DNA of 36,258 nucleotides from an uncultured Allomuricauda sp. (GTDB lineage Bacteria > Bacteroidota > Bacteroidia > Flavobacteriales > Flavobacteriaceae): assembly GCA_937899065.1 (NCBI GenBank), contig CALBPG010000084.1:1-36258 (forward strand), written 5' to 3'. Within the stretch, counting starts at the first letter, position 1, and every line of letters begins with the position of its first letter. The notes beneath the pieces were generated by a model. The model had not been told where the DNA came from. It saw only the letters and a list, made by a program, of their open reading frames with translations, and searched no databases. A program made the position numbers and the translations under genes. This document shows positions 11,171 through 14,243 of the stretch, one piece after another.

Positions 11171-12331
11171 GTGAAACCACCCAAACACATCCTGCCTGTT
11201 ATTGTCATTGCACAATTCTTTTGTACTTCGTTGTGGTTTGCGGGGAATGGTGTTCTGAACAGTTTGCTGGCTGAAAAAGGAATCGCTATTTCTGTCGGAA
11301 CAGTCACCGCCTCAGTACAATTCGGTTTCATTATTGGCACATTGCTTTTTGCAATACTCACCATTACCGACCGATTTTCACCTTCTAAGGTTTTTTTGGT
11401 TTGCGCGGCTCTTGGAGCCTTGTGCAATTTGGGAATGGTTTGGAAAACCTCAGGTTCGGAGCTGCTATTGGCCTCTCGCTTCACTACTGGTTTTTTCCTT
11501 GCAGGCATTTATCCGGTTGGGATGAAGATAGCAGCAGATTACTTTGACAAGGGTTTGGGTAAATCATTGGGGTACTTGGTGGGTGCCTTGGTTGTGGGAA
11601 CCGCACTTCCCCATTTTTTAAAATGGCTTACGGCTCTTCTCCCCTGGCAATACGTCATTTTTAGCACTTCATTTCTCGCAGTAGTTGGTGGGATACTTAT
11701 GGTTTCTTTAGTGCCAGATGGTCCTTTTCGTAAATCTAGTCAACACCTAGACTTGATGGCTTGCTTTTCCATTTTCAAGAAGAAAGATTTTCGTGTAGCT
11801 GCTTTTGGTTACTTCGGGCACATGTGGGAACTCTACACTTTTTGGGCTTTTGTTCCCATTCTACTAAGACTGTTTATGGAGTTCCATAAAATACCTGAGC
11901 TATCCATTGCTTTCTGGTCATTTTGCGTTATTGCCATTGGTGGGTTGGCTTGTGTTCTTGGCGGATACATTTCACAAAACCATGGTGTAAAACGCACAGC
12001 AAGGTCAGCACTTTTATTATCCGGATTGTGCTGTTTGCTTTCGCCTTTGGCACTACTCTACGCTCCTTTACCTCTATTTCTCATCTTCCTCTTGTTTTGG
12101 GGAATGGTAGTCATTATGGATTCTCCGCTGTTTTCTACCTTAGTCGCCCAAAGTACACCTCAAACTATTAAAGGCACTGCATTGACCATCACCAACTGCA
12201 TTGGGTTTGCTATTACGATTGTAAGCCTTCAACTTATCCAGCTCCTTCAAGGTATCTTACCTGATGTTTTTCTTTTTATGGTGTTGGCTCTTGGCCCCAC
12301 GTTTGGATTAATAGGATTGTTTAGAAAGTAA
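11171..12331 (+). CDS. MFS transporter (GTG start)
   Basis: About 12 hydrophobic segments; FCTSLWFAGNGVLNSLL and LLLASRFTTGFFLAGIYPVGMKIAADYF are MFS-like. Confidence 0.9.
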   Translation: MKPPKHILPVIVIAQFFCTSLWFAGNGVLNSLLAEKGIAISVGTVTASVQFGFIIGTLLFAILTITDRFSPSKVFLVCAALGALCNLGMVWKTSGSELLLASRFTTGFFLAGIYPVGMKIAADYFDKGLGKSLGYLVGALVVGTALPHFLKWLTALLPWQYVIFSTSFLAVVGGILMVSLVPDGPFRKSSQHLDLMACFSIFKKKDFRVAAFGYFGHMWELYTFWAFVPILLRLFMEFHKIPELSIAFWSFCVIAIGGLACVLGGYISQNHGVKRTARSALLLSGLCCLLSPLALLYAPLPLFLIFLLFWGMVVIMDSPLFSTLVAQSTPQTIKGTALTITNCIGFAITIVSLQLIQLLQGILPDVFLFMVLALGPTFGLIGLFRK

Positions 12332-12365
12332 TTTAATCCTTCCATTTTGACATTTATAACTAAAA

Positions 12366-12423
12366 TACCCTCTCCTACAACAAAGGGGAGGTGTCCTGAT
12401 AGCAAAATCAGGACGGAGGGGTA
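12366..12423. repeat. Structured element upstream of the DUF559 gene (two hairpins plus possible outer stem)
   Basis: CCTCTCC/GGGGAGG (12369-12375 with 12385-12391, one G-U), GTCCTGAT/ATCAGGAC (12393-12400 with 12407-12414), outer TACCC/GGGTA. Confidence 0.7.
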
Positions 12424-12467
12424 ATTTTTATTTTTAACTACCACCACTACCAGATCGTATCTTACTT

Positions 12468-12824
12468 ATGCAAATTCACAACAAGAAAATACTTAAACCC
12501 TTCAGAAAACAACTGCGCAAAAATCCAACCCCAGCAGAAGCCTTTTTATGGAAATATCTAAAAGGAAAGAAATTAGAAGGAAGAAAGTTCAGAAGACAAC
12601 ATAGTATTGATTTTTACATTGTGGATTTCTATTGTGTCTCTGAAAAGTTAGTCATCGAGCTGGATGGCCAAGTACATTTCAATCCTGCTACACAGGAAAA
12701 AGACCACATCCGAACCCAACATTTGGAAGGTTTAGGAATCAAAGTAATTAGGTTTGAGAATAAACAGGTTTTTGAAAATTTGTCTTCCGTCTTAAAGGAA
12801 ATAAAGCGCAATTTTAGAAAATAG
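12468..12824 (+). CDS. DUF559 (Vsr-like endonuclease fold) protein
   Basis: LRKNPTPAEAFLWKYLKGKKLEGRKFRRQHSIDFYIVDFYCVSEKLVIELDGQVHF...VIRFENKQVFENL is the canonical DUF559 pattern. Confidence 0.93.
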   Translation: MQIHNKKILKPFRKQLRKNPTPAEAFLWKYLKGKKLEGRKFRRQHSIDFYIVDFYCVSEKLVIELDGQVHFNPATQEKDHIRTQHLEGLGIKVIRFENKQVFENLSSVLKEIKRNFRK

Positions 12825-12841
12825 CTTTCGAGAAGTATCAA

Positions 12842-12902
12842 CCCTTTTGTCCTTCGGACATCTTCCCTTTAAGGGAAGATGCTTTTTTCGAGCGGTCAAG
12901 GG
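12842..12902. repeat. Structured element downstream of the DUF559 gene (two hairpins plus outer stem), roughly the inverted counterpart of 12366-12423
   Basis: CCCTT (12842-12846)/AAGGG (12898-12902) enclosing GTCC-TTC-GGAC (12849-12859) and CATCTTCCCTT-T-AAGGGAAGATG (12859-12881) followed by CTTTTTT. Confidence 0.7.
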
Positions 12903-12962: not shown

Positions 12963-14243
12963 TTACAACTCGCAATGCCGAACGGCCTCAATGGTCTTAT
13001 CTAAATCCGCATAGCTTAAGGCATCATTCAGGAAATAACTCTCAAAAGCTGAAGGCGGTAAGTACACCCCTTGTTTCAACATACCGTGGAAATACTTTTT
13101 AAAGCTATCATTGTTTCCTTTGCCGGAAGAAGCGAAATCCATAACTGGTTCATCGCAAAAATGGACTGAAATCATGCTCCCAAACCGATTGATTTGATGT
13201 GTCACACCTCTTTCCGTTAAAACTGCTGCCACACCTTTATGTAGGTATTCCGTTTTTTCTGCAAGACTGTCAAATACCTCTGGTTTTTCACTCAGTTCTT
13301 TGAGCATAGCAAGTCCGGCACTCATAGCCAAGGGATTTCCACTTAAAGTACCTGCTTGATAAACGGGTCCTTCTGGGGCCAGATGCGCCATGATTTCTGA
13401 TTTGGCTGCAAAAGCACCTACAGGAAGTCCACCTCCGATAACCTTTCCGAACATGACGATATCCGCATCGATGCCCAGTGCTTCTTGTGCACCACCTTTT
13501 GCCAATCGGAACCCAGTCATGACCTCATCGAACAATAATAAAATACCTTCTTGGGTACACAATTCGCGTAGACCGTGGATGAATTCATCTGTTGGAACAA
13601 TACACCCCATGTTTCCCGCAACCGGCTCAATGATAATGGCTGCAATCTCATCCTTATTGGCCGCAACCAAGTCTTTTACCCCTTCCAAATCATTGTAATT
13701 CGCCAATAGGGTATCTTTTGCCGTACCCTGTGTCACCCCAGGACTATTTGGGCTTCCGAATGTAACCGCTCCACTTCCTGCTTGAATCAAAAAAGCATCA
13801 GAATGTCCGTGATAACAGCCAGCAAACTTGATAATTTTATCTTTTCCGGTATACCCTCTAGCCAATCGAACTGCACTCATGCACGCCTCGGTGCCACTGT
13901 TCACAAAACGAATCTTGTCGATGTTGGGCACCATCGAAACCGCCAATTGCGCCAGCTCAGTTTCAATTTCCGTAGGCATTCCAAAGGAAGTTCCCTTTTT
14001 TGCCTTCTCAATTACTGCGTTGATAACAGGCTCATAGGCATGTCCTAAAATCAATGGACCCCAAGAGGCGATGAAATCTATCAACTGGTTGCCATCTTCA
14101 TCGTAGAGGTAAGCACCTTTGGCTTCTTTCACAAATATCGGGTCGCCGCCAACGGCCTTAAAGGCTCTTACAGGAGAATTCACTCCTCCCGGAATGTATT
14201 TTTTTGCTTCAGCGAACAGTGCGCTACTGCGTTGATAAATCAT
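12963..14243 (-). CDS. hemL: Glutamate-1-semialdehyde 2,1-aminomutase
   Basis: [42 protein letters not shown] and [18 protein letters not shown] motifs; full length. Confidence 0.97.

Follow-up and report, generated by a model that had tools for sequence, protein, structure and literature searches.

A DUF559 nuclease gene and its inverted double-hairpin cassettes are likely to form a small REPIN-like mobile element in Flavobacteriaceae

In a 36,258-nucleotide stretch of DNA from an uncultured Allomuricauda species, analyzed here as a whole and referred to as the window, a single gene of the DUF559 family lies between two inverted copies of a double-hairpin cassette. The cassette recurs beside related genes in many bacteria, and some of these genomes also have it as scattered gene-less copies, which gives gene and hairpins the look of a single mobile unit; we consider it likely that together they constitute a small mobile element, REPIN-like in its build, with a nuclease of the Vsr/EDxHD type in the place of RAYT. 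The unit moves, and the association between cassette and DUF559 gene holds; that DUF559 is the mobilizing enzyme, and that movement follows a cut-and-copy route, is what we infer. Among its possible readings, the initial annotation had named a small mobile cassette and a nuclease comparable to RAYT/REPIN logic, and this turned out to be the best fit, none of the three results capable of refuting it having occurred. The locus is made up as follows:

12366..12425, + strand: 5′ cassette A, with H1 CCTCTCC..GGGGAGG, GTG, H2 GTCCTGAT..ATCAGGAC and a purine tail GGAGGGGTAA (GGAGGGGT) toward the gene (sequence, fold, covariance model)
12468..12824, + strand: DUF559 gene (PF04480), 118 aa, PD-(D/E)XK-type fold (Pfam, alignment, AF2, Foldseek plus profile)
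12839..12882, - strand: 3′ cassette B′, an inverted copy whose - strand gives H1 CATCTTCCCTT..AAGGGAAGATG (12859-12881), H2 GTCC-GAA-GGAC and tail AAAAGGGTTG (AAAAGGGTT) (sequence, fold, second-best genome match of the independent covariance model)
12859..12889, + strand: terminator-like stretch in which CTTTTTT comes after the H1 of cassette B′ (terminator scan; possible secondary role)

Both window cassettes have the same order of H1, GTG, an H2 of variable sequence and a purine tail, and the two copies are inverted. A repeat finder paired positions 12382-12407 with 12845-12870 (26 nt, 73% complementary), and folding of the flanks as DNA gave z scores of -4.5 upstream and -4.0 downstream, with none of 200 shuffles being equally stable. 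Sequence, folds and an independent covariance model thus agree with the earlier proposal that the flanks are inverted copies of one multi-hairpin unit around one ORF. The outer stem suggested at the same time fared less well: it appears in the upstream minimum-energy fold only and is absent from the downstream one, the support being for H1 and H2 instead. Upstream, the neighbor is an MFS transporter gene on the same strand as DUF559, ending at 12331; downstream, hemL (12963-14243, - strand) is convergent to both. In a search of the window, the outer cassette edges at 12334-12377 and 12871-12898 gave weak matches to the independent model (E values of 0.04 and 0.16), which could reflect either chance or what is left of further cassettes on the outside. 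No Rfam match came near gathering scores, and we rejected a known RNA family on that ground.

Since purine/pyrimidine stems are easily found, and direct flank similarity amounts to only 73% over 26 nt, one could argue that two unrelated G+C-rich hairpins merely came to look alike by chance or convergence. We looked to covariance models, a fixed IUPAC pattern of the cassette having proven uninformative: its counts were no higher than those of a reversed control in most genomes, and its matches told us something only where a real H2 stem was present. The independent model was built from 18 cassettes at other loci, with the window left out; like the other models it begins at the 3′ arm of H1, because MAFFT left the 5′ arm unaligned. 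Its top two sites in the 4,048,859-bp assembly are the two flanks, 12383-12424 on the + strand (E 1.2e-4) and 12839-12869 on the - strand (E 6.5e-3). The third-best site reached E 0.14, such that E < 0.1 was attained by the two flanks alone. The cassette consensus contains GGTG..CGGAAGGGT.

The stems covary, as a shared structured unit had been expected to do. Among 20 cassettes, 97% of H2 cells were paired compared to 64% after shuffling, and among 111 distinct cassettes the figures were 91% and 61%, with 206 double-sided changes versus 62; the smaller set is the cleaner test because the alignment of 111 was fitted to the model. In the larger set, sliding the partner by a single base abolished the signal. 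The sequence and length of H2 vary freely while pairing stays. As for H1, the upstream arm of the same cassette offers 8 or more Watson-Crick pairs in 79% of cases, a level reached by 30% with swapped arms and 1% with shuffled ones. Given a model that pinpoints both flanks in 4 Mb and compensatory changes across 111 cassettes, we regard the chance reading as already refuted and grant it practically no credence.

The ORF at 12468-12824 is a clear DUF559 gene (PF04480, E 7.7e-34, 116.3 bits against a cut-off of 20.6). An alignment of 54 sequences revealed ten invariant residues, E24, W28, Q44, D53, F54, E64, D66, G67, H70 and D79, all of which are retained in the window copy; D53, E64 and D66 form the D..E-x-D core. 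The AF2 model calculated from this alignment (pLDDT 91.7) was matched best by Foldseek to 3HRL (TM 0.69/0.86) and also to I-Bth0305I (3R3P; TM 0.63/0.74, E 3.4e-4), and the alignment profile found the same two structures (3HRL, E 3.1e-30; 3R3P, E 7e-6), placing the model next to solved members of the Vsr/EDxHD PD-(D/E)XK fold. Because the fold matches and the invariant residues are kept, the window protein is probably an active nuclease of this type, as judged from sequence and a predicted structure. Since all ten invariant residues are kept, the alternative that the gene is a domesticated remnant has become less likely. Two other candidate identities were rejected: a defense gene, for which PADLOC returned weak matches only, and phage or plasmid cargo, with 4 distant phage and 39 plasmid matches, every one below 60% identity. 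In phages, distant DUF559 relatives (records H3 and H4) bear the annotations HNH endonuclease and homing endonuclease.

Turning to other loci, the same kind of cassette stands on one or both sides of DUF559 genes in Gramella, Gillisia, Lutibacter, Aequorivita, Croceivirga and others, which upheld the expectation that the flanks have counterparts near related genes. Within the genus, sites of model R1 (R1 sites) occur in 12 of 41 genomes, and every one of these 12 carries a DUF559 gene of the window subfamily (Fisher p 6e-8). Three more subfamily carriers have no R1 sites, among them two with H2-shortened cassettes (G004 and G015). Counted from coordinates, 21 of the 44 R1 sites in the genus lie within about 1 kb of a DUF559 gene.

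A scan of the family, with one genome per genus (151 in total) so that kinship is partly controlled, gave a similar picture. A relative of the window protein is present in 50 of the 151 genera. Where a close relative (E <= 7.2e-40) exists, R1 sites were found in 17 of 18 genomes, versus 8 of 133 without one (p 1.5e-15); restricting the count to unlinked sites left 8 of 18 versus 8 of 133 (p 6e-5). The lone carrier lacking R1 sites (G103) has a DUF559 gene broken by a TAA stop. Eight genomes with R1 sites but no close DUF559 relative speak against our best reading; one of these exceptions (G076, 13 sites) contains a broken DUF559 fragment.

The full H1-H2 form was present at 24 of 76 DUF559 loci, and H1 plus tail alone at many others; by eye and by flank comparison, many DUF559 genes outside the window subfamily have this H1-plus-tail palindrome alone. 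At 37 of 70 DUF559 loci, the flanks of the same locus were complementary above the 99% level of shuffled sequences, as were 8% of swapped pairs. This sequence-based comparison misses the window itself (score 20), because the likeness of the window flanks is structural. Two arrangements exist, with the tails directed at the gene, which is the window arrangement, or pointing outward as at argS, leuS, recG and metH, and any single mechanism must cover both.

Gene-less copies also occur. Some genomes harbor 15-21 cassettes along with one close DUF559 gene. Inverted palindrome doublets are dispersed in extragenic space in three genomes: G033 has intergenic cassette pairs of the form B′-spacer-A away from the gene, G021 has 19 sites, several of them in chains of alternating orientation, and G158 has 21 R1 sites, with about 20 dispersed elements, each a few hundred bp long, that contain A and B′ cassettes. 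Nearly all dispersed copies in G158 share the H1 CTCCTCCCTTCAGACGAAGGGAGG, loop included, with the copy just downstream of the sole close DUF559 relative in that genome. In G193, units of about 200 bp are arrayed in tandem on both sides of DUF559. At a site orthologous between G032 and G033, the right-hand H2 differs while the flanks match, a sign that hairpin arms may be replaced or converted. We did not find an unlinked cassette copy in the window genome, a draft of 269 contigs and 92% completeness. Just downstream of hemL, two loci (L068 and L064) have a GTCATCCTGAGC...GTCGAAGGA repeat inside the H1 loop of DUF559-type cassettes; here, one repeat family is nested within another.

Is the unit mobile at the window locus? 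Of the 30 genus genomes examined, 5 have DUF559 after hemL, and in six sister species the MFS gene abuts hemL without DUF559, three of them (G020, G023 and G025) with apparent hairpin remnants. The gene is thus not fixed between MFS and hemL, as it would be under strictly vertical presence. On the hemL tree, the pattern of presence and absence requires at least 3 changes, and it is explained equally well by one early insertion with several later losses and by repeated or recent gain.

The case for insertion is stronger at other loci. In-frame copies of DUF559 with hairpin ends lie inside leuS, recG, metH and hsdR, the domain order being confirmed by Pfam, and Pfam likewise confirms fusions in which DUF559 precedes rnpA and hemD or is attached behind hisD. 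In leuS, the element sits immediately ahead of the editing domain. Four genomes of the genus possess it; in the others that were read, the loop is either short or taken up by different short repeats. Empty sites exist at both hemL and leuS, while targets vary and no defined cleavage site or exact element end emerged from them. Looking at the leuS loop and the hemL locus by eye, we saw no target-site duplication; decay has blurred the boundaries there. Across the genus, the LeuRS loop between NWIGRS and FTTRPDT (loci L295-L324) contains the in-frame DUF559 element, short repeats such as GTCATTTCGAGCGCAGTCGAGAAATCT and GGACGCTGAGCGTAGTCGAAGCGACC, or nothing, and thus naturally lends itself to insertion by several families of repeats; a CGTC-type-like repeat, identified by eye, fills this loop in other species of the genus. 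In several genus species (L100-L102, L104 and L114), DUF559 is in frame with the N-terminus of RnpA, the ribonuclease P protein, as confirmed by Pfam for L100.

These insertions bear on another explanation, according to which DUF559 is a Vsr-type nuclease for mismatch or damage repair, like VsrA of Caulobacter, and the hairpins are ordinary terminators or mRNA-stabilizing elements between convergent genes. There is something to be said for it: VsrA, itself a DUF559 protein, has a functional link to a cytosine methyltransferase and the SOS response (PMC12907096), MFS and DUF559 do converge on hemL, and the downstream hairpin with its CTTTTTT looks like a terminator. Indeed, the scan agrees with the earlier remark that this hairpin could terminate transcription, and it may act so; what such a role leaves unexplained is the wider system. 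Both window cassettes share conserved parts that are no part of a terminator (GTG, H2 and tail) in inverted orientation, similar hairpin ends lie in frame within coding genes, the DUF559 gene is patchy at the hemL locus, and E < 0.1 is reached nowhere else in the genome. We consider this explanation quite unlikely. The DUF559 domain is borne by VsrA, an example of such a protein acting on the genome in living cells (PMC12907096), and by YcjD of E. coli K-12, and the endonuclease-like NGO0050 of N. gonorrhoeae (3HRL) matches the alignment profile; VsrA differs in being treated as a mismatch-repair nuclease, and the word "palindrome" is absent from that paper.

In E. coli, ycjD adjoins a hairpin, GTCCCCTCGCCCCTCTGGGGAGAGGGTTAGGGTGAGGGG, that by eye has the H1-plus-tail look. 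The K-12 locus (L123:6200-6760; DUF559, 167 bits) has a palindrome-like 3′ remnant, with GTCCCCTCGCCCCTCTGGGGAGAGGGTTAGGGTGAGGGG about 200 bp downstream. E. coli is missing from the control genomes reported for PF04480, despite ycjD scoring 167 bits.

Another possibility is that REP-like cassettes are moved by a different enzyme, a RAYT or other Y1 transposase, and that the DUF559 genes are captured passengers. REPs mobilized by RAYTs are known with inverted doublets, dispersed copies and intragenic insertions (PMC3116915, PMC3733652), and a Y1_Tnp match, most often a weak one, was obtained in 8 of 14 cassette-bearing genomes. In the other six (G000, G008, G032, G033, G184 and G193), which include the window genome, an incomplete draft, and five that are 99-100% complete, Y1_Tnp was not found; a RAYT-type transposase therefore cannot be required there now. 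Moreover, cassette presence tracks the DUF559 subfamily, the in-frame insertions in several host genes include the DUF559 gene itself, and the GTAG tag was not seen in the cassette or its consensus by eye. Movement by another enzyme thus strikes us as unlikely.

How, then, does the DUF559-hairpin unit relate to known systems? With REPIN/RAYT it has in common short palindromes, inverted doublets, copies that are both dispersed and flanking one nuclease gene, and occasional intragenic copies (PMC3116915, PMC3733652); a single gene may accompany many copies in either case. However, the enzyme here is a DUF559 PD-(D/E)XK protein whereas RAYT is an HUH tyrosine transposase, the cassette has the two-hairpin form H1-GTG-H2-tail, and the DUF559 gene itself is in frame inside host genes. 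Because the tyrosine transposase and the GTAG tag are both missing, we do not class the cassette system as REPIN/RAYT. CGTC REPs have been reported without a dedicated transposase and possess a CGTC tag and a CCA tail (PMC3733652); they differ in having one hairpin, in that tag and tail, neither of which we saw in the cassette by eye, and in the lack of a reported transposase gene, whereas the cassettes here flank a nuclease gene. Rickettsia palindromic elements occur in frame inside conserved genes (PMC3733652), and the DUF559 unit likewise enters genes in frame. Finally, I-Bth0305I (3R3P), listed as a mobile-intron nuclease, shares its catalytic fold with the window DUF559, yet the partner of the latter is a palindrome cassette, and no intron or intein was recognized around the gene.

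Taking the DUF559 unit as a mobile element, we see it as most likely that the protein would recognize its own cassette, as an extruded hairpin or as duplex, and would cut at cassettes or at target sites, upon which repair would copy the cassette, either alone or together with the gene, to a new place. Such homing-like action would take place in cis and in trans. The cassette also spreads without the gene, as inverted pairs in a REPIN-like or MITE-like manner and as tandem arrays. We favor a homing-like cut-and-copy route because of the homing-nuclease fold, for which we know of no strand-transfer chemistry, the lack of a visible target duplication and the arms apparently replaced at orthologous sites. 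By analogy to RAYT systems, transposition via a hairpin or single-stranded intermediate is possible.

In the literature, we found no description of a link between DUF559 and palindromes, mobility or leucyl-tRNA synthetase; as bioRxiv and the majority of subscription journals lay outside the coverage, the unit is provisionally undescribed so far as we found. DUF559 is common, including in E. coli as YcjD, yet nearly unstudied, and our results bear on studies in which DUF559 proteins are interpreted as nucleases of mismatch repair. To our knowledge, no enzyme is known for many bacterial palindromic repeats without RAYT. Whether DUF559 proteins are the missing mobilizers of this large class, which would make them part of selfish, tyrosine-transposase-independent elements with a solitary Vsr-type nuclease and in-frame entry into genes, we see as evenly balanced. 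If true, movement of cassettes by DUF559 would account for a protein family of unknown function, for a class of intergenic hairpins readable as terminators, and for in-frame insertions in enzymes like LeuRS, RecG and methionine synthase.
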